Assembly: GCA_024650045.1 (NCBI GenBank)
Contig: JANKMU010000011.1
Location: 1-60,515 of the forward strand
Source of the DNA: Mycoplasmatota bacterium
GTDB lineage: Bacteria; Bacillota_I; Bacilli_A; Acholeplasmatales; Acholeplasmataceae
Length of the DNA: 60,515 nt
Reading direction: 5' to 3'
The notes under the pieces are model-generated. The model made no database searches and was not told the DNA's origin. It saw only the letters and a list, made by a program, of their open reading frames with translations. Position numbers and translations under genes: made by a program. Below are positions 8,989 through 18,701 of this stretch, piece after piece. Position 1 is the first letter of the stretch; every line of letters begins with the position of its first letter.

Positions 8989-9555
8989 TTATGAGATATC
9001 TACATCATTATAAAATGTATAGATGACGATTTGAACAATAGCATCACTTTCTTCAGTATATTGGACTTGAACTTGATCAATATAATAAATTAAATCCTGC
9101 TCATAAATAAGTTCAATAAAATCTAGTACATTTAATGGACTGTCAATAACAAAAGATATTGAAATTCTAACAAAATGAACTGAACTTGGTAAATCCTCAT
9201 CAAATGGAGAAGTAGCACTAGTGTTGAAAATTATTTGATAATTTTCAACAGCTGATAATCCAGATGTATTTTTCACTGACTCGATTTGATTACTAATACT
9301 TGACTGGCTAAAAGTATTAGGCAAATATTGAATGATTTCACTAATTGAATGATAAGTTACGGGTTCTTCTGACTGTAGTAATTGATCAATTTGATTTTGT
9401 ATTGCTTCTTCTTGATTTTTTAAATCATCAAGACGTTTTTGTTGAATGCTTTGAATCAATAAGTATCCACCAAGAACGACGATAAATACGATAAAGATAA
9501 ATAATAAGGTTCTATTTTGATTTATTTTTTTTCCGAAAACGTCATATTTACGCAT
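8989..9555 (-). CDS. PilO-like pilus alignment protein
   Basis: Probable PilO, the bitopic partner of PilN in the inner-membrane alignment complex of type IV pili. The 188 aa show the expected plan: short cytoplasmic N terminus (1-15), one membrane helix (about 16-34), a coiled coil (about 36-65, LDDLKNQEEAIQNQIDQL), then a small alpha/beta domain with ferredoxin-like strand pattern. Primary sequence similarity in PilO is always low, so the call rests on architecture and position. It overlaps the 3' end of the pilM-pilN fusion by 8 nt; an AGGTGA site is just inside that gene. Confidence 0.72.
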   Translation of the reverse strand: MRKYDVFGKKINQNRTLLFIFIVFIVVLGGYLLIQSIQQKRLDDLKNQEEAIQNQIDQLLQSEEPVTYHSISEIIQYLPNTFSQSSISNQIESVKNTSGLSAVENYQIIFNTSATSPFDEDLPSSVHFVRISISFVIDSPLNVLDFIELIYEQDLIYYIDQVQVQYTEESDAIVQIVIYTFYNDVDIS

Positions 9556-10999
9556 AATTCACTGTCACCTCCATAACAAGAGATTGAGTGAATTTGAAAA
9601 TAGGTTCACTTAACATCCAACGAGATAATTCTGTATTTCCTTCAACAATGCCATATTCCTCATATATTTGTAAGAGATATTCATAAAGTTCATGTTCTGT
9701 TAAAGCAGTAATTGTGATAACAATTTCGTTATCACTTGCATTGGTTTTATAGTTTAACAAATCAATATTTGTTTCCATTTCATTGATTAAATCTAGTACA
9801 TAGGATGATGGTGAATGCTTTTGTTCAACTAAAAAGTCATATGTATTACTATAGTCAATTTGTGTCGTTGTATAGGTTGGATTAGGTGGTGTCTCTTCAA
9901 TTAATAAGTCCAATTGTATTTGAAGATTATTAATTCTATTTTGCTGATATTTAATATCTTCATTCATTGTATGGAATGGAATATAAATCAAAGTAATTGC
10001 AGAAATGATTAAAAAAGCTAAGACAAATAAATAATTTGCATATAAGTTTAATCTATTGAGACGCTTAATATTAAAGTTATATTTGAAAGGTTTTTCTTTT
10101 TGGCTATATAGTACTGAAACATATGGTATAAACGATGCTAAATGAATATTTTTAGAGATCGGATCGTTTATTGCCATATGACACATTTTAGGATTTAAAT
10201 GCCCTAATTGATTAATAATCTTTTCTTGTATGTAATCTAAATCGACATAGTCATTGAAATTAAAAAAGATGGTTTTCTTGATTTCACTCTTTCCTTTTCT
10301 CATATTAAACTTATAGTAATTGTGAATGCGTTCAACAAAATTCTCAACCAGTTGACCGAAGTCTTCGCTATCACCATCTTCAACTTCGACTAAGTTAAAA
10401 ATGGTATTGTGATTCTCAATAATTTGAATACTAAATAATTTATCATATAAGGAAACCGTCATACTCGTTTCGTCTTTTTCATCGTTATTATTAATAAAAT
10501 GCTCATATAAAGGTAAGTTTGATACTTCATATTTAACTTCTCTAGCACCAAGACGTTCAAAAACATCACAATAGTCGTGAAGAAGGTTTTCATCAATAAT
10601 AAAAGCAATAACTCTTATTTCATTTTCATCTTCTTGTCTCACTGAATGTGTGATGACTGATTCTTCAAAAGGTAAATGGATGGTTTTTCCTAGATGACCT
10701 CTGATATACGATTCTATATTTTTTTTCAGAAGCTCATCTTTATTTATTCTAATATCACGAACCAAAACATTTTGATCATGAATAACATGTGTTATTTTTC
10801 TTGGTTTGATTTTATGTGTTTTAAATAAAACTCTCAAGTTTTCTAATAACAACTCTGGGTCTTTAATATATCCACTTTGAATGATATTAGATTCAAGCTT
10901 CATATAACCGTGTTGTGCTTTCTCTAAATCTTTTGCATGTTCAAAAAAACCTATGAAGTCATCTGTAAAAAATATACTCAAATCAATTCGTTTTTTCAT
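9548..10999 (-). CDS. PilM-PilN fusion, type IV pilus assembly
   Basis: A 483-aa protein joining two normally separate pilus proteins. Residues 1-300 resemble the actin-like cytoplasmic PilM (the LLENLRVLFKTHKIKPRKIT block and the following VRDIRI strand are typical). Residues 321-341 form one membrane helix, followed by a coiled coil (345-370) and a PilN-like ferredoxin-fold domain. The PilM phosphate loop, normally DIGSSSIK, is replaced by DLSIFFTDD, so ATP binding is doubtful. Natural PilM binds the short N-terminal tail of PilN, so fusion is mechanistically plausible. Lies between pilD and pilO. The start ATG has only a weak ribosome site. Confidence 0.78.
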   Translation of the reverse strand: MKKRIDLSIFFTDDFIGFFEHAKDLEKAQHGYMKLESNIIQSGYIKDPELLLENLRVLFKTHKIKPRKITHVIHDQNVLVRDIRINKDELLKKNIESYIRGHLGKTIHLPFEESVITHSVRQEDENEIRVIAFIIDENLLHDYCDVFERLGAREVKYEVSNLPLYEHFINNNDEKDETSMTVSLYDKLFSIQIIENHNTIFNLVEVEDGDSEDFGQLVENFVERIHNYYKFNMRKGKSEIKKTIFFNFNDYVDLDYIQEKIINQLGHLNPKMCHMAINDPISKNIHLASFIPYVSVLYSQKEKPFKYNFNIKRLNRLNLYANYLFVLAFLIISAITLIYIPFHTMNEDIKYQQNRINNLQIQLDLLIEETPPNPTYTTTQIDYSNTYDFLVEQKHSPSSYVLDLINEMETNIDLLNYKTNASDNEIVITITALTEHELYEYLLQIYEEYGIVEGNTELSRWMLSEPIFKFTQSLVMEVTVNYA

Positions 11000-11008
11000 A
11001 TTTATTCA

Positions 11009-11761
11009 TCACATCCCTAATAAACTGAAATACCAATTTAAGAAGTCTTGACCGTAAAAATAAACAATCAATGTAGCTATAAAAATGAAAGGTACTAAAG
11101 GTATTCCATTTTGCTTGTTTCTTAATTTAATCATACCATAGATAAATCCAAATAGTGATGCTAGAAATAGTGTTAATATACCCAGTTGGTAGGTAACTAA
11201 AAATCCAACAAAAATATAGATTTTTACATCTCCACCACCTAATGCGTCTTTTTTAGTTATTTTATGAGCAATAAATGCAATCAAAAAAAGTAATGTAAAC
11301 AAAATAACTGCTGACAATAAAAAAGTAAAAAATGACTTTTCAATGATTCGAATCAAAACAAGGGGTATCAATCCGATTATCCATACACGATCAATAACAA
11401 CATTGTATTTTATATCACTGATTGACTCAATCAAAAAAACAGATATCATAATGAGTGTAATCGCTAGTTCTAGAGTGAATCCAAATATAAGAAACGTCAT
11501 CATAAATAATAAGCCACCTAGTATTTCTAAAAGCAAATGACATATTGGAATCTTTGATTGACAATAATGACATCTCGATCGATTCATAAGATAACCTAAG
11601 ATAGGAATAACATCAATCCATCTTAATTGGTGATTGCATGATTCACAATGAGATCTGCCCATGATTGTTTCATGTTTAGGTATTCTGGTTGCTACAACAT
11701 GATAAAAAGAGGTCATTAGTGCACCTATTATAAACATGAATATCGCATAAAAAATAATCAT
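11009..11761 (-). CDS. pilD: Prepilin peptidase/N-methyltransferase (PilD/ComC type)
   Basis: Polytopic aspartic protease that cleaves type III signal peptides of prepilins and methylates the new N terminus. Zinc-type cysteines 39, 42, 64 and 67 (CESC, CHYC) mark the methyltransferase half. The two catalytic aspartates are Asp116 (SISDIKYNVVID) and Asp178 (GGGDVK). About seven to eight membrane helices. Start taken as the ATG at 11761 preceded by AGGTGAT; a GTG at 11770 with GAGG 6 nt upstream is equally possible and adds three residues. Substrates are the four prepilin-like genes in this locus. Confidence 0.93.
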   Translation of the reverse strand: MIIFYAIFMFIIGALMTSFYHVVATRIPKHETIMGRSHCESCNHQLRWIDVIPILGYLMNRSRCHYCQSKIPICHLLLEILGGLLFMMTFLIFGFTLELAITLIMISVFLIESISDIKYNVVIDRVWIIGLIPLVLIRIIEKSFFTFLLSAVILFTLLFLIAFIAHKITKKDALGGGDVKIYIFVGFLVTYQLGILTLFLASLFGFIYGMIKLRNKQNGIPLVPFIFIATLIVYFYGQDFLNWYFSLLGM

Positions 11762-11789
11762 AGTAATCACCTAAATCCTCTATGCAGAT

Positions 11790-11841: not shown

Positions 11842-12228
11842 TTATGGAGTTACTAATCCTGTTTCCGTGTCAATTTCAAAACCATTAATAAAGATGGTTT
11901 CGTCGGCAAATGTTGCTGCTCCACTTGCTACAGTAAAATCAATATCAGCAGGTTGATGTGCACCATCTACAGTTAATGAGACAGTGTTTGTACCGAAGTT
12001 CATACCTAAATCAGCTAAATCATATGTTCCATCTGCTGCATCAAGTGAGAAAATTCTTACTGATTCTTCGATTGATGAAAAAGTAGCCTCTGCTGCTCTT
12101 GCTTCTTGTCTTTCAATTAAATTACCAATTGTAGGTACTGCGATAGCAGCAATAATTCCTAAAATGACAATAACAGCAAGTAACTCTATTAACGTTACAC
12201 CTTTTTTATTCTTAAGAATTTTAGTCAT
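11842..12228 (-). CDS. Type IV major prepilin
   Basis: Main pilus subunit candidate. A 10-residue basic leader (MTKILKNKKG) ends at the prepilin peptidase site G/V; the mature protein begins VTLIELLAVIVILGIIAAIA with the conserved Glu5 and a roughly 24-residue hydrophobic helix, then a small soluble domain without cysteines. Precursor 128 aa. A perfect AGGAGG lies 7 nt before the ATG at 12228; the longer ORF from 12276 is therefore rejected. Own strong promoter upstream and terminator downstream imply much higher expression than its operon neighbours. Position 1 is Val rather than the usual Phe. Confidence 0.92.
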   Translation of the reverse strand: MTKILKNKKGVTLIELLAVIVILGIIAAIAVPTIGNLIERQEARAAEATFSSIEESVRIFSLDAADGTYDLADLGMNFGTNTVSLTVDGAHQPADIDFTVASGAATFADETIFINGFEIDTETGLVTP

Positions 12229-12262
12229 ATTTTTTCCTCCTAATAACTCTCTTCTTATATTA

Positions 12263-12290
12263 ATCATATCACTCATTCTAAATATGTCAA
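12263..12290 (-). promoter_or_regulatory. Promoter of the major pilin gene
   Basis: TTGACA (12285-12290), 16-bp spacer, TATGAT (12263-12268) with a TGA extension. It lies in the gap between pilC and the pilin gene, inside the operon. Confidence 0.75.
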
Positions 12291-12324: not shown

Positions 12325-13545
12325 TTATATTTGTGATCCTAATGATAACATTGGCATCATTATTGCTAAAATCATGACAGCAACCAATGCATATACAACA
12401 ATGAGCAAAATCGGTTGAATAGAATTTTTTAATTGCTGAACTCTTAAATCAGAAATGCCATTATAATAATTAGATAAGTTCTCCATCAGTGTTGGAATAT
12501 TACCAGTTCTTTCTCCAGTTGATATCATTCTTGCCATAATGGGGTCTATATACTTACTTTCTTCAAATGCCTTTGAAAATGGTTTTCCATCTTCGATATA
12601 TGCTAATGTTTTCGTAATTAACTCTTTATAAACTACATTTGATAATACACCTCTTACCGTTTGAAGTGCTTTAACTGAGTTAACACCTTTTGATAACATC
12701 TGGCTTAGTGAATTAGCAATTAATATTTGATTATTCATTTGTATTAAACTACCGAATATTGGTATTTTCAATTTGAAAACCGAATACGCATAATGAAATC
12801 TTTTTACTTTTTTATTTAAAATGACTATCAACATTACAAATATAAATACACTGCTAAATATCAATAAAGCATTGTTTGCGAAAAATGTTCCTGTATTCAA
12901 AAAGAACTTAGTAATACCTGGTAATTCTGCTCCTTCGAATGATGAAAACAAACCGATAATTCTTGGAAAAACAAAAACTGTCATGCCTATCGATATTAAA
13001 AGTGCAGCTGCTAAATATACTAAAGGCATTCTTAATGCAGATTTAATATCATTCGTAATCTTGGTTTGATTCTCATAATATTCTGCCATTTTTAAAATCA
13101 TATCGCCAAGATTACCAGATAATTCTGCAACTTCTATCATTTGTACTAACAGATTAGGAAATTCTTTTGGTCTTTTTGAAAGTGCTTTTGAAAAAGATAT
13201 ACCGTTATTGATTTGTTGAAACAACTCAAAATACAACTTTCTTTGTGATCTATTTTCTTGTTGAATCGATAATAGTTCTAAAGCTGAGATTAATTTAATT
13301 CCTGCATTTAAAAGTGATCCTAATTGCTTTAAAAAGAAAATAAGTTGTTTGGTACTCATCACCTTACCAATAGTGATTTGATTCAACTTAGTTAATAGAT
13401 TACGGTATTCAATGACATTTTTAATCTCATAGTTTTTTGATTGAAGATATTTAATACAGACATTTCGATTTAATGCTTCAATCCTACCTCGAACCATTTT
13501 TCCTTCTGCATTCATCGCTAAATATTTAAAATTACGAAGTTCCAT
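12325..13545 (-). CDS. pilC: Pilus inner-membrane platform protein PilC (GspF family)
   Basis: Polytopic platform that couples the PilB motor to pilin insertion. The 406 aa contain the two repeated GspF domains (about 65-190 and 265-395), each beginning with a helix bundle such as FLKQLGSLLNAGIKLISALE and MNNQILIANSLSQMLSKGVN, and three membrane helices (about 168-190, 220-245, 375-398). The N-terminal domain (MELRNFKYLAMNAEGKMVRGRIEA) is typical for PilC. GGAG precedes the ATG by 8 nt. Starts 5 nt after the pilB stop. Confidence 0.93.
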   Translation of the reverse strand: MELRNFKYLAMNAEGKMVRGRIEALNRNVCIKYLQSKNYEIKNVIEYRNLLTKLNQITIGKVMSTKQLIFFLKQLGSLLNAGIKLISALELLSIQQENRSQRKLYFELFQQINNGISFSKALSKRPKEFPNLLVQMIEVAELSGNLGDMILKMAEYYENQTKITNDIKSALRMPLVYLAAALLISIGMTVFVFPRIIGLFSSFEGAELPGITKFFLNTGTFFANNALLIFSSVFIFVMLIVILNKKVKRFHYAYSVFKLKIPIFGSLIQMNNQILIANSLSQMLSKGVNSVKALQTVRGVLSNVVYKELITKTLAYIEDGKPFSKAFEESKYIDPIMARMISTGERTGNIPTLMENLSNYYNGISDLRVQQLKNSIQPILLIVVYALVAVMILAIMMPMLSLGSQI

Positions 13546-13550
13546 TCACA

Positions 13551-15209
13551 TCACTCCATCTCATTTGCTACTTTAAGAACTTCTTCAATTGATGTAACAC
13601 CTTCTCTAACCTTTTTCATACCTGATTCTAAAATGCTTCTCATACCTTCTGATTTTGCCTGCTTAGTTAATTCCGAAAGTCCAGCATTTTCAGCAATCAG
13701 TTTTTGCATGTTTTTTGTAATTGGTAAAACTTCGAAAATACCTGTACGACCTGCGTAGCCTTTATAGTTGCAAGATGGACAGCCTTTTGCTCTTTTAACA
13801 GTTTCTATGTCCATGCCGAACTTTTTAAACATAACAATTTCACTTGGTGTAGGTTCGTCATCAAACTTACATTCTGTACACAAACATCTCACTAAACGCT
13901 GTGAAATGATTCCAGATAGTGATGATGCAATTAAAAATGGTTCTATTTCCATGTCTAACAGTCTTGTTACTGTCTTAATGGCGTTATTCGTATGAATCGT
14001 TGATAATACCAAGTGTCCAGTCAAAGATGCTCTAATCGCAATCTCAGCGGTCTCAACGTCTCTAATTTCTCCAACCATAACGATATTAGGATCTTGTCTT
14101 AAAATAGAACGTAGAGCTTGAGCAAATGTTAAATTGACTTCCGGATGAACCTGTACTTGATTAACACCTGCCATTTTGATTTCAACAGGATCTTCTACCG
14201 TTACGATGTTTACATCTGGTTTATTTAACTCTTGAAGACAAGCATAAAGTGTTGTCGTTTTACCAGAACCTGTTGGTCCACTAACTAAAACAATTCCATT
14301 TGGTTGATCAATCATTTGTCTAACTAAACGCTCTTCTTTACTATCAAAACCAATTGCTGGTAATTTACTCATTGCTCCTGATAAATCTAAAATACGCATA
14401 ACAACTTTTTCACCACGTACAGTTGGTAATGTCGATATTCTTAAATCAATATTTTTTTGTTGAATCAGTGTTTGAATGCGTCCATCTTGAGGAACGCGTG
14501 TTTCTGTAATGTCCATTCCAGACATAACTTTAATACGTGAAATCATTTGATTATGTATTTTAATCGGAAATTCCTTGACTATATCTAATACGCCATCAAC
14601 CCGATATCTAATGAGTACCTTGTCATCTAGTGGGTCAATGTGAATATCACTTGCTCTTTGGAATACTGCAGATGTCAATATTTGGTTAACCAATTTAACC
14701 ATTGGAGTTTCTTCATCTAATTCTTCTTTAAACTCTTCTTCTTTGGAAATGCTTTGCTTAGCTCCTAATGCTTCTAATGTTCTAGTAAAACCGTAATATT
14801 TTTCAATTTGAGTTATGATCTCATTTTTAGGTGCAGAAAAAGCTTTTGGCCGGTAACCGGTCAAAACTCTTAATTCTTCATTTACAACAAAATCCAATGG
14901 ATCTGATGTCGCATACATAAGATTTTTTTCTTCTATGCGCAAAGGAATGATATTATGTCTTCTACAAAACTCCTCACTAACCATAGCTAAAACCTGCTCA
15001 TCAATTGTAAAATTAGATAAGGCAACGCGTTGAACACCTGTTGAATCTTCTAATGCCTTTAAAATTTGCATTTCTGTCGCATATTCTAAACGGCTTAATG
15101 TTTCACCTAATAATTCAGTAGGTTCTTTTTTATCTAAAGCATCATTTAATTGTTTTTCAGTTATAACTTTAGCTTCAAGTAAAATATCACCAATACGTCT
15201 TAATGCCAT
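13551..15209 (-). CDS. pilB: Pilus extension ATPase PilB (GspE family)
   Basis: Hexameric cytoplasmic motor for pilus polymerisation. The N-terminal MshEN/GspE-N domain is at 1-145; the ATPase core carries Walker A GPTGSGKT at 311-318, an Asp box (TVEDPVE), a Walker B-type GEIRD at 380-384 and the His box STIHTN. A C4 zinc site (Cys444, Cys447, Cys477, Cys480) marks it as PilB/GspE rather than the retraction ATPase PilT. Start taken as ATG 15209, 5 nt after AGGTGG; a GTG at 15218 overlaps that ribosome site. 552 aa. No PilT-type gene is present here. Confidence 0.95.
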   Translation of the reverse strand: MALRRIGDILLEAKVITEKQLNDALDKKEPTELLGETLSRLEYATEMQILKALEDSTGVQRVALSNFTIDEQVLAMVSEEFCRRHNIIPLRIEEKNLMYATSDPLDFVVNEELRVLTGYRPKAFSAPKNEIITQIEKYYGFTRTLEALGAKQSISKEEEFKEELDEETPMVKLVNQILTSAVFQRASDIHIDPLDDKVLIRYRVDGVLDIVKEFPIKIHNQMISRIKVMSGMDITETRVPQDGRIQTLIQQKNIDLRISTLPTVRGEKVVMRILDLSGAMSKLPAIGFDSKEERLVRQMIDQPNGIVLVSGPTGSGKTTTLYACLQELNKPDVNIVTVEDPVEIKMAGVNQVQVHPEVNLTFAQALRSILRQDPNIVMVGEIRDVETAEIAIRASLTGHLVLSTIHTNNAIKTVTRLLDMEIEPFLIASSLSGIISQRLVRCLCTECKFDDEPTPSEIVMFKKFGMDIETVKRAKGCPSCNYKGYAGRTGIFEVLPITKNMQKLIAENAGLSELTKQAKSEGMRSILESGMKKVREGVTSIEEVLKVANEME

Positions 15210-15210
15210 A

Positions 15211-16407
15211 TTAGCCACCTACCTTTTCTTGAATATTTTGTTCTATAATTTCATGAATAGGGAAATACTGTTCATTATATAAAGTGATTGTTACAGGATC
15301 TGATAAATTGGGTGTTATGGTTCTATAGAAGAAAACAACATAACCATCTACGCCAGTTTGTGTAACAACCTGATAAATGAATTCAGTATCGGTCTCAGTA
15401 ATGATTACCCCTGGTGTAGTTTCATCAATTTCAGGATTATCAATAATAATGGTTTGATATGGAATGATAACTTCAATATCTTGAGACGATTCATATTCAG
15501 TTATATATGGATATCCGATGAGTTTAAATGTAATTGAAGTGTCACTTAGTTTCTCCAATGTAATCGTATATCTGTGATTCAATCCATTGAAAAACGAAAA
15601 ATCATATTGATTTACTTTTAAAATCCTAACGTTACTTCCAATTTCTGCCCAAGTAGGCAGTGTTGGATTTTGTTCAAAAATAAAACCGTTAAAATGTGTT
15701 TCAATCATTAATTTTTGCATTGCGGATGCAATAATACTTAGTTGTGTGTTATTTAATGTTGTGTCACTTAAATAACTCAACATAGAAAATCTTGAGTTTT
15801 CAAAAATTTCAATCTCTTCGACTTCTTCAATTATTTTTGTGACATCTAAACTATCTATAGATGATATATTTGTTTCAGAGATTATGTGAATGCTTGTTGC
15901 TTCATCTAAATAATCAATCAATTGATAAACTTTTCTATTTTTCAATGTTCCCATATCTTCTAAAAGATCATCAATAAACCATTGATATGCGAATTGACTA
16001 ACTATAGATGTTGTGAACATATTTTCTAACTCATTTTTAAGTAATGTGTCATTCGTTGTGGATAATATAAAAAATGCTTGATTATTTTGATCTGGAGTCA
16101 TTTGATTAATGGTCTGGTCAATATCAAAATCAAACCAAGCTAAATCTATGATATATTCATTGTTTTGATATATGATTTTATAATCAGCTGTATTTTTCCA
16201 CTGTTGAACACGTTGAGTTAAGATGTTACCATACTGACTAGGTTCATAATTTCCTAAGTATATAAAACCAACACTGGTTTCCTCTACGTCTTTAGATAAA
16301 TCAAAAATAGACATGATAACAACTGCAAATATAACTGCAATTGAAACAGTTATCAATGAAACCATGAAATATAAGTTGCGTTTAAAAAAGCTTATAAACC
16401 GTTTCAA
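15211..16407 (-). CDS. Single-pass exported protein, possibly VanW/YoaR-like, in pilus operon
   Basis: First gene of the pilus operon, of uncertain function. One N-terminal membrane helix (about 10-33) is followed by a roughly 360-residue extracytoplasmic part. The region after the anchor (SVGFIYLGNYEPSQYG and the following strand-helix pattern) recalls the YoaR/PG-binding-4 domain, and 255-310 (FFNGLNHRYTITLEKLSDTS) resembles the end of a VanW domain; both are weak, so treat as tentative. Start is TTG at 16407 with AGAGGTGG just upstream; a GTG at 16416 lies within that site. Ends 1 nt before pilB. Confidence 0.62.
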   Translation of the reverse strand: MKRFISFFKRNLYFMVSLITVSIAVIFAVVIMSIFDLSKDVEETSVGFIYLGNYEPSQYGNILTQRVQQWKNTADYKIIYQNNEYIIDLAWFDFDIDQTINQMTPDQNNQAFFILSTTNDTLLKNELENMFTTSIVSQFAYQWFIDDLLEDMGTLKNRKVYQLIDYLDEATSIHIISETNISSIDSLDVTKIIEEVEEIEIFENSRFSMLSYLSDTTLNNTQLSIIASAMQKLMIETHFNGFIFEQNPTLPTWAEIGSNVRILKVNQYDFSFFNGLNHRYTITLEKLSDTSITFKLIGYPYITEYESSQDIEVIIPYQTIIIDNPEIDETTPGVIITETDTEFIYQVVTQTGVDGYVVFFYRTITPNLSDPVTITLYNEQYFPIHEIIEQNIQEKVGG

Positions 16408-16430
16408 TACTACCACCTCTACTTAGCCTT

Positions 16431-16532: not shown

Positions 16533-16538
16533 TATAAT
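16533..16538 (+). promoter_or_regulatory. Putative -10 of the minor pilin operon
   Basis: Plus strand TATAAT, 20 nt before the chosen start of the first minor pilin; no convincing -35 at 16-18 bp. It overlaps an in-frame ATG at 16537, which argues against that ATG as start. Confidence 0.4.
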
Positions 16539-16557
16539 GAAAGGTGTAGAGGATGTG

Positions 16558-17013
16558 ATGAATCTTATGAAAATACTCAATCACAAAGGATTCTCAATGC
16601 TAGAAGCACTTGCTTCTGTTTTTATCATTTCTCTAGTCCTCACAACAACTATCACAATTATTGCAAATGTACGCAACCAAGTATTAGCATCTGATCGTCA
16701 GATTGCTGCAATTGAGGTTGGGTCACAAATAAGAGATCAAATATATATGGATTATGATTATGATACTTTATCATTATGGATAGGAGACAGTGAAATTATT
16801 GTTGACTATGAAAACTGCAATGATATAGATAATCCAATATCTTGCTCATTATTTCAATATACACTTAACAATTTAACCTATGATGAAAATGTCTTGATCA
16901 TTTTCGAAGCACCAACAGAACAATCTATACAATTTCAAGTCATTCATTTTCGAGTAGAAATTGTTTATCATGATTCCAGAAAAATCCAGTTAGAAGGTAT
17001 TATTTATGGATAA
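16558..17013 (+). CDS. Minor prepilin-like protein 1
   Basis: Type IV pilin-like protein with type III signal: basic leader ending NHKG, then FSMLEALASVFIISL with Phe1 and Glu5, one hydrophobic helix, and a small strand-rich domain with one cysteine pair (ENCNDIDNPISC) that could form a disulfide outside the cell. 151 aa from the ATG at 16558, which has AGAGG 5 nt upstream. First of three prepilin-like genes in a plus-strand operon divergent from the pilus machinery; by order it may match PilV/GspI-type minor pilins, which is inference. Confidence 0.85.
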   Translation: MNLMKILNHKGFSMLEALASVFIISLVLTTTITIIANVRNQVLASDRQIAAIEVGSQIRDQIYMDYDYDTLSLWIGDSEIIVDYENCNDIDNPISCSLFQYTLNNLTYDENVLIIFEAPTEQSIQFQVIHFRVEIVYHDSRKIQLEGIIYG

Positions 17014-17536
17014 GAGAGGATTAGGGTTGCTTGAATTATTAGGTGCAATTATTATATTTGGATTGATGGTTTCAATGTTGTCTGTCCTTATTTCATTTAT
17101 AATCAATGCTAGTGACAAAATTTCAGAAAAAAGTAGAGCAAATACTGAAGGCATGTATTTGATTTCTACGATAGATTCCAAGTTTCGAGATTTTGGAGCT
17201 ACGGATTATCAAATATGTGATGATGGAGTTGATTGTATAATTATTGAAAGTCATTTTCAATATGTATTAAACGAAGATACACAAAGTATTGATTTAGAGA
17301 CATATGATCCTGCTTTGAAATTAGAATTTGAAATCATTGATGGTGGTTTATATATAGATGGAATACAAGTTATGCTGAGAGGTTTCACACTTCATGAAGA
17401 GAGTTCAATTGAAACAACAGTTTTAACAAATACTGTTCGTATAAAGTTTTATTTTGTTTTAGTATCTGATGACTTAAGCACTTATGCATTTACTGTAACA
17501 AAATCATTTGAAATACAAGAAATACCACAAACATAG
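17006..17536 (+). CDS. Minor prepilin-like protein 2
   Basis: Prepilin-like, 176 aa. Very short leader (MDKRG), then LGLLELLGAIIIFGLM with Glu5 of the mature form and a membrane helix, followed by a strand-rich extracellular domain with a single close cysteine pair (CDDGVDC). It overlaps the preceding gene by 8 nt; AAGG lies 9 nt upstream of its ATG. Position and size suggest a PilW/GspJ-type initiation-complex subunit (inference). Confidence 0.83.
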   Translation: MDKRGLGLLELLGAIIIFGLMVSMLSVLISFIINASDKISEKSRANTEGMYLISTIDSKFRDFGATDYQICDDGVDCIIIESHFQYVLNEDTQSIDLETYDPALKLEFEIIDGGLYIDGIQVMLRGFTLHEESSIETTVLTNTVRIKFYFVLVSDDLSTYAFTVTKSFEIQEIPQT

Positions 17537-17549
17537 GAGAATTTAACCA

Positions 17550-18701
17550 ATGAAATTAATCAAGAATAAGAAAGGTATGGGTTTAGCAACTGTATTAGGG
17601 ATTGTTGCATTTGTCTTAGGGACAACTGCGACACTTTTGACCTATGTCTTTTTTCAAGCTCGATTAATTCAAACAAGTATAGAGACTACTGAATCTTATA
17701 TCAATGCTGTACAAAAAGTTGAAACAACATTAAATATCATAGCAAGAGATCAAACGCTTGATGAATCTTATTTAAATGCCCTTGAACTTTATATGGGTGT
17801 ATCTATAGAACCCTATGGTGATAATTTATGGTCAGTTACTTCTTCAATTAATGAAAGAGATTTAGTTACTAGTTATATAACCGGATCGACTTCAGTTGTA
17901 AATACATATGAAACGATTTTTGAAAAAACTGGTGAAGAACCTGATTTTTACTTAAGTCCTTTAATTACACCTACAAGTTTATTAACTGCATATCTTGTCA
18001 ATTATTTTGAAATCAATTTTTTTGAATCAACTATGGATTCATCATTAGTTTCTTTTCAAGAAGTTATTGATTTCATTAAACAATTATCTGATAACAATGA
18101 AGGCTTTGATATTGTTTCAAGAACTACATTAACTAATCAATCCAATCCAACAGTATTATCACATTGGCTTATTGAAGGAGACGTTTCAATCACTGGAGGA
18201 AAAAATTTAACTATTCCTAATGGTTTGCTGTTAATTATCGATGGTAATCTCAATTTAAGTGCAGGAAGTAAACTTTACGGAAATGTCGTTGTTAACGGTA
18301 CTGTTGAATATGGTTCTCAAGGGAAAAAGGTCCAAGGGCTTGAAGGGACCATTTATGCTAATGGTGATGTTGTTTTTTCAAAAAATATGACATTAGGTAC
18401 TTACGAGCGACCCAGTTTTGTATTTTCAGAACAAGATATCATTTTAGATAATAATACAAGCGGTATTGCCTATTTCTTGAGTCAAAATTTTACTGCTCAA
18501 CAAGGTAATATTTATATTACTGGTGGCGTTTATACAGTTTATAATTCAACACTTCAAAATGATGTTGAAGAATATCCAGATTTAGATCAAGAGTTATTTT
18601 ATGAATATGCTATACCAACAACAATATATGTTGAAAGCGACAGTAATGGTGAAATAGGTTCTGGTGGATTTAAATTTACATATCCGAAATTATCATCCTA
18701 A
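17550..18701 (+). CDS. Large prepilin-like protein with beta-helix-like C-terminal domain
   Basis: 383 aa. The N terminus NKKG/MGLATVLGIVAFVLG has a basic leader and hydrophobic helix like a prepilin, but position 5 is Thr, not Glu, as in GspK-type tip subunits. A helical middle (40-200) is followed by a region (about 205-335) of short repeating strands (IEGDVSITGG, IIDGNLNLSAGS, NVVVNGTVEYG, TIYANGDVVF) typical of right-handed beta-helix or polymer-forming (bactofilin-like) domains. It may sit at the pilus tip and contact surfaces. AGGAG precedes the ATG. Last gene of its operon. Confidence 0.75.
   Translation: MKLIKNKKGMGLATVLGIVAFVLGTTATLLTYVFFQARLIQTSIETTESYINAVQKVETTLNIIARDQTLDESYLNALELYMGVSIEPYGDNLWSVTSSINERDLVTSYITGSTSVVNTYETIFEKTGEEPDFYLSPLITPTSLLTAYLVNYFEINFFESTMDSSLVSFQEVIDFIKQLSDNNEGFDIVSRTTLTNQSNPTVLSHWLIEGDVSITGGKNLTIPNGLLLIIDGNLNLSAGSKLYGNVVVNGTVEYGSQGKKVQGLEGTIYANGDVVFSKNMTLGTYERPSFVFSEQDIILDNNTSGIAYFLSQNFTAQQGNIYITGGVYTVYNSTLQNDVEEYPDLDQELFYEYAIPTTIYVESDSNGEIGSGGFKFTYPKLSS

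Follow-up and report, generated by a model that had tools for sequence, protein, structure and literature searches.

A conserved PilM-PilN fusion without a nucleotide site in a type IV pilus operon of wall-less mollicutes

Results

Gene content of the pilus locus

The window, a 60,515-nucleotide stretch of DNA from a Mycoplasmatota bacterium, carries a pilus operon in which a gene for a 401-aa protein is followed by pilB, pilC, a prepilin gene, pilD, a single gene joining pilM to pilN (pilMN) and pilO, an order conserved among the long fused-gene loci (Table 1). The type IVa pilus set of PilB, PilC, prepilin, PilD, PilM, PilN and PilO is together at this locus, with PilO named by position because its product gave no family match above cut-off; the end of pilMN and the pilO-like gene share 8 bases. 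Neither a secretin gene nor a PilP gene was found within the pilus cluster. The 401-aa gene is conserved at its place in those fused-gene loci that reach so far, and a weak homologue of its product (26% identity) is encoded beside pilB in family f2. The minor-pilin-like genes adjoin the operon in most loci; N_methyl matches are weak for the first two, and all three products have a pilin-like start. The longest of them (17550-18701) continues into a long C-terminal part, is conserved by the operon and is possibly a tip pilin or adhesin.

Table 1. Features of the pilus locus and of the fused pilMN gene (positions in the window)
Feature	Position	Strand	Basis
pilO-like gene, 188 aa	8989..9555	-	position, hydrophobic N-terminal segment, conserved in operon
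pilMN, fused PilM-PilN gene	9548..10999	-	483 aa plus stop
PilN-like extracellular half, residues 343-483, with a coiled-coil helix followed by a ferredoxin-like domain	9551..9973	-	AlphaFold, hhalign
single membrane helix, residues 320-342	9974..10042	-	hydropathy; AlphaFold helix 316-369
junction: short linker and retained PilN docking peptide KYNFNIKR, residues 302-316	10052..10096	-	alignment with split PilN start
PilM-like actin-fold cytoplasmic half, residues 1-301	10097..10999	-	AlphaFold, structure match, hhalign
degenerate adenosine motif TIFFNFNDYV, residues 243-252	10244..10273	-	LGGLSHL in motif-bearing PilM
degenerate phosphate-2 region MTVSLYDKLFSIQII, residues 180-194	10418..10462	-	VDIGAQS in motif-bearing PilM
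degenerate phosphate-1 loop LSIFFTDDFIGF, residues 7-18	10946..10981	-	alignment with motif-bearing and split PilM, hhalign
pilD prepilin peptidase	11009..11770	-	Pfam A24_N_bact 2.7e-27, Peptidase_A24 2.1e-13
major prepilin	11842..12276	-	Pfam N_methyl 5e-8; start KKGVTLIELLAVIVILGII
pilC platform protein	12325..13545	-	Pfam T2SSF 4.6e-50
pilB extension ATPase, MshEN-type domains	13551..15218	-	Pfam T2SSE 8e-140, MshEN 4e-18
401-aa protein with a membrane anchor, at the head of the operon	15211..16416	-	no Pfam/NCBIfam family; place conserved
three divergent minor-pilin-like genes (158, 176, 383 aa)	16537..18701	+	N_methyl, pilin-like starts

The pilB product scores 609 bits on the NCBIfam PilB model, below the cut-off of 675.65, while its cyclic-di-GMP domain (NF053729) scores 45.2 bits, over the cut-off of 38. 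With this MshEN c-di-GMP-type domain and 15 GGDEF-domain matches in the source genome, second-messenger control is plausible.

The source genome, that of a member of the Acholeplasmataceae (1.89 Mb, 99.94% complete), has the wall-less Peloplasma aerotolerans as its nearest named relative, with a PilMN protein 76% identical to that of the window. The penicillin-binding transpeptidase family PF00905 was not found in this genome or in 19 of 20 relatives, nor in the tested genomes of f16, f24 and further members of f1. Peloplasma has been described as non-motile, with pili unmentioned (PMC11122141), and a 2011 survey of Gram-positive genomes recorded type IV pilus genes in none of the five mollicutes sampled (PMC3244431). 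Our search of the open literature, with most subscription papers outside its scope, turned up no publication about pili in Acholeplasma or Izemoplasma relatives.

A single chain with PilM-like and PilN-like halves

The pilMN open reading frame has an ATG start, a stop codon at 9548-9550 and no internal stop. The earlier note had described this intact frame correctly but left its strand unstated; it lies on the minus strand, and the plus-strand reading of the same interval is riddled with stops. The product aligns over its full length with orthologues at 32-76% identity, and these come from independent assemblies that include two closed chromosomes (CP017948.1 and CP076020.1), so pilMN is neither a frameshift nor an assembly fusion. 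Compared with the nearest relative, synonymous change far exceeds non-synonymous change (dN 0.130, dS 1.41, dN/dS ~0.09).

Both halves were recognized as remote family members by fold and profile comparison, since the protein falls below PilM cut-offs and its C half has no Pfam match. In the AlphaFold model, built on a 17-row alignment and of middling confidence (pLDDT 82, pTM 0.60), residues 4-312 match PilM. The best solved match of the N half is PilM 5eou (Z 21.9, rmsd 3.7, 300 residues aligned, 12% identity), followed by PilM 2ych (Z 20.4), FtsA (19.4) and cyto-EpsL (14.6), and hhalign relates the N half to motif-bearing PilM with a probability of 98%. We refer to this half as PilM-like because its scores lie below the curated cut-offs of Pfam PilM_2 (PF11104, 16 of 27 bits) and NCBIfam pilM (TIGR01175, 22 of 133 bits). 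Searching the PDB by sequence, with PilMN as query, returned chance matches only.

Residues 342-483, modelled separately and again with middling confidence (pLDDT 83, pTM 0.51), adopt a predicted ferredoxin-like fold that matches the periplasmic domains of GspL proteins (XcpY 5n7l, Z 10.8; PulL 8a9w, Z 9.6; EpsL, Z 9.2) as well as PilO 2rjz (Z 9.4). This half gives 99.5% in hhalign against split PilN and no match to Pfam PilN (PF05137), a family matched by PilN from a motif-bearing cluster of the Bacilli. The earlier note had proposed that PilM is fused to PilN, with an actin-like fold in the N half, one membrane helix at 321-341 and a PilN-like C half. Structure prediction recovered both folds, so that neither of the absences named in the note as refuting its reading was seen; hydropathy gives a single strong hydrophobic helix peaking at residues 324-342, and the fold matches and profile comparison of both halves bear out the overall reading.

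The junction between the halves retains the docking peptide of PilN. Among the aligned fused proteins F309 is nearly invariant and R313 invariant, and the F-x-h-x-R pattern lines up with the N terminus of split PilN, which reads xDLLPxxKR in f16. The chain in 5eou consists of PilM with PilN(1-12), and its match reaches model residue 312 (chain residue 366), whereas for other P. aeruginosa PilM entries the match ends at model residues 300-301 (chain 353-354). This difference is consistent with a binding mode in which the junction peptide would lie in the PilM groove.

Loss of the nucleotide site

All three PilM nucleotide motifs (DxGxxxxK, the second DxG and GG) are lost in PilMN. Alignment with motif-bearing Bacilli PilM shows the first phosphate loop changed from SFDFGNEFIK to SIFFTDDFIG, in which the motif columns D, G and K have become F10, T12 and G17, the second phosphate motif from DIGAQS to SLYDKL, and the adenosine motif from LGGLSHL to FFNFNDY. 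The replacement of the phosphate loop by DLSIFFTDD, reported in the earlier note, is thereby confirmed as residues 6-14; in the alignment of this region, motif-bearing Bacilli PilM reads VSFDFGNEFIK and PilMN reads LSIFFTDDFIG. In addition, ~35 residues beside the pocket are missing between the second motif and the next long helix, and in the model strand 198-206 runs straight into helix 211-233. From the alignment, the model and general knowledge of the fold, we take the missing stretch to be subdomain 2B of the actin fold, which closes the nucleotide pocket. With three motifs and this part of the pocket gone, the N half likely does not bind ATP and would be an ATP-free structural protein, as judged from sequence and a predicted structure.

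Experimental work on Thermus PilM shows that such a protein can function. Counting along 2ych in its alignment to a motif-bearing relative places the first-motif lysine at chain position 26, and its column is occupied by G17 in PilMN. In Thermus PilM, K26 is needed for ATP binding, yet the K26A protein can bind the motor and, together with PilN, stimulate it (PMC6325625), so that PilM without ATP can work.

Distribution and order of events

Our survey of fused and split relatives, the kind of survey that the earlier note had proposed, covered the class Bacilli and found the fusion in 23 proteins of two families. Split pilM and pilN are neighbouring genes in families f2, f16, f12 and f7 as well as in two Izemoplasma-like genomes, and some of these pairs share one frame with only the pilM stop in between. 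In a tree of fused and split proteins, all 23 fused rows fall on one side of a branch with support 97/90, and the grouping holds when the junction columns are removed; this supports one fusion event, as far as can be read from an unrooted sequence tree with some long branches. The split pilM genes of f2, f16, f7 and the two Izemoplasma-like genomes have already lost the nucleotide motif, and in f12 the D and G are lost and the K is mostly kept. Motif loss as a consequence of fusion is ruled out by these motif-less split genes, and decay of the ATP site would have preceded fusion, a direction which assumes that the split, motif-bearing state is older.

Two features of the survey concern genome quality. 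Indistinguishable pilMN copies occur in MAGs of the HGW-Tenericutes-2 and -1 families (G003:C32, locus L022, and G187:C16, locus L064), probably through cross-contamination, and the tree took in only one of them. In G004:C116 (L017, L027) pilMN is in pieces on opposite strands, owing to inversion or misassembly.

Motor ATPases

PilT was not found over cut-off in the source genome or in 60 relatives. Among further genomes of the class Bacilli, PilT is present in one of 25 (G093) with PilM of the motif-less lineage, a status for which the loop was read directly in 23, and in all three with motif-bearing PilM; this link between the PilM motif and PilT is an association over few independent events.

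Discussion

We have described a real and conserved PilM-PilN fusion that lacks a nucleotide site, and we give a probability of roughly 0.8 to its being a motor-docking stator in the basal part of a machine that assembles a type IVa-like pilus. Published work has PilM docking the motor (PMC6325625, PMC11656802), and PilMNO is required in monoderms generally (PMC6916266). The N half, as an actin-fold cytoplasmic domain that has lost its nucleotide site, would form a fixed docking collar for PilB as the sole motor, and the old N-terminal peptide of PilN, placed right after the PilM domain, would bind the same PilM groove within one chain. This chain would cross the membrane once and pair with PilO outside through its ferredoxin-like domain, while PilB, acting through PilC, would polymerize pilins processed by PilD; fusion would set PilM and PilN at 1:1. 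We infer PilB docking by the N half, from the operon and from homology, together with the intramolecular peptide binding, the absence of ATP binding and the pairing with PilO.

The earlier note had suggested a structural, ATP-independent alignment protein. Sequence and predicted structure give good support to a loss of ATP binding, but the alignment role is doubtful. As the cluster is without secretin and PilP and the genome is without the wall-making transpeptidase, there would be nothing across the envelope to align, and such a role fits poorly with a cell that has neither outer membrane nor wall. A motor-docking stator fits better.

PilM and PilN of type IVa pili (Pseudomonas 5EOU, Thermus 2YCH) resemble the mollicute protein in the actin fold, the PilN docking peptide, the one membrane helix, the ferredoxin-like domain and the adjoining pilB, pilC, pilD and pilO. 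PilMN differs from them in being one chain, in its lost nucleotide site and in being without PilP, PilQ and PilT. PilM-PilN fusions as such are already known, both in Clostridioides difficile and in GspL/PulL. According to the passage of PMC6916266 that cites Melville and Craig 2013, PilM and PilN are fused in C. difficile, a monoderm whose type IV pilus by this description likewise has the two as a single protein; unlike the wall-less mollicute host, C. difficile is walled. GspL, PulL and EpsL also combine a PilM-like cytoplasmic and a PilN-like periplasmic domain in one chain, and their solved periplasmic domains are the closest to the C half of PilMN. Unlike these proteins, PilMN has an N half nearer to PilM than to cyto-EpsL, and it belongs to a cell with no outer membrane and a cluster with no secretin. 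The existence of split relatives suggests that the mollicute fusion arose separately from that of GspL. The presence of a PilM-PilN fusion in wall-less mollicutes is new, as is the order of events that the sequences suggest, with site decay first and fusion later. Wall-less mollicutes are now seen to carry type IV pilus operons that are complete and encode a motor bearing a c-di-GMP-type domain.

The resemblance to GspL raises the alternative that the machine makes a short DNA-uptake or secretion pseudopilus rather than a surface pilus, with the protein working as GspL does. PilT is lacking over cut-off in the genome and its 60 relatives, a state shared with Com pili and type II secretion; the source genome encodes ComEC, the C half has its nearest structural matches in GspL, and PulL is likewise a fusion of PilM and PilN (PMC10191384). 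We nevertheless consider a pseudopilus rather unlikely, given the ranking of the N half nearer to PilM than to cyto-EpsL and the score of PilB, which is higher against the PilB model (609 bits) than against GspE (568 bits), both below cut-off; moreover, 33 of 37 relatives without PilB also have ComEC, which does not track the pilus operon.

An improbable alternative holds that the pocket of the N half has been re-built and still takes up a nucleotide or some other ligand, in which case ATP may still regulate this half. The actin-like fold is retained, and a conserved F-x-T/S-D motif, with D13 in more than 90% of the aligned fused proteins, stands in place of the phosphate loop and places this loop under constraint; against this, three motifs and the stretch walling the pocket are gone, including the lysine position essential for ATP in Thermus PilM. 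The idea that an error of sequencing or assembly produced the fusion has virtually no chance of being correct, for although pilM and pilN of the split relatives L055 and L074 abut in one frame, one stop codon short of fusion, the 23 fused proteins in two families, their independent assemblies and the unbroken window copy all speak against it, and the closed chromosomes had already led us to reject it.

Returning to the stator reading, type II secretion offers a parallel, as PulL/GspL is a PilM-PilN fusion in a system that has lost PilT (PMC10191384); the parallel between the PilT-less type II systems and the mollicute PilMN lineage is new. A tentative and on balance doubtful proposal is that the ATP site of PilM serves the exchange of PilB and PilT, so that after loss of PilT the site would decay and PilM-PilN fusion would become possible, independently in GspL and in the mollicute lineage. 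The Bacilli provide a natural series in which the motif is intact, then the D and G are lost with the K mostly kept, then all is lost, with PilM-PilN fusion only later, in genomes nearly all without PilT; this series renders a motor-exchange role for PilM-bound ATP testable.

Some related clusters differ from that of the window. A second short ATPase in f12 was considered as a candidate PilT and rejected, since the one copy examined, from G109, is ComGA (310 bits against a cut-off of 300). Other Acholeplasmatales (G029, G042) carry a different pilus-like cluster with pilB, pilC and pilD and no PilMN match. In these clusters, proteins of 254 and 381 aa encoded between the pilin genes (L060:3042-3806 and L061:11341-12486) might be remote PilM-like parts.
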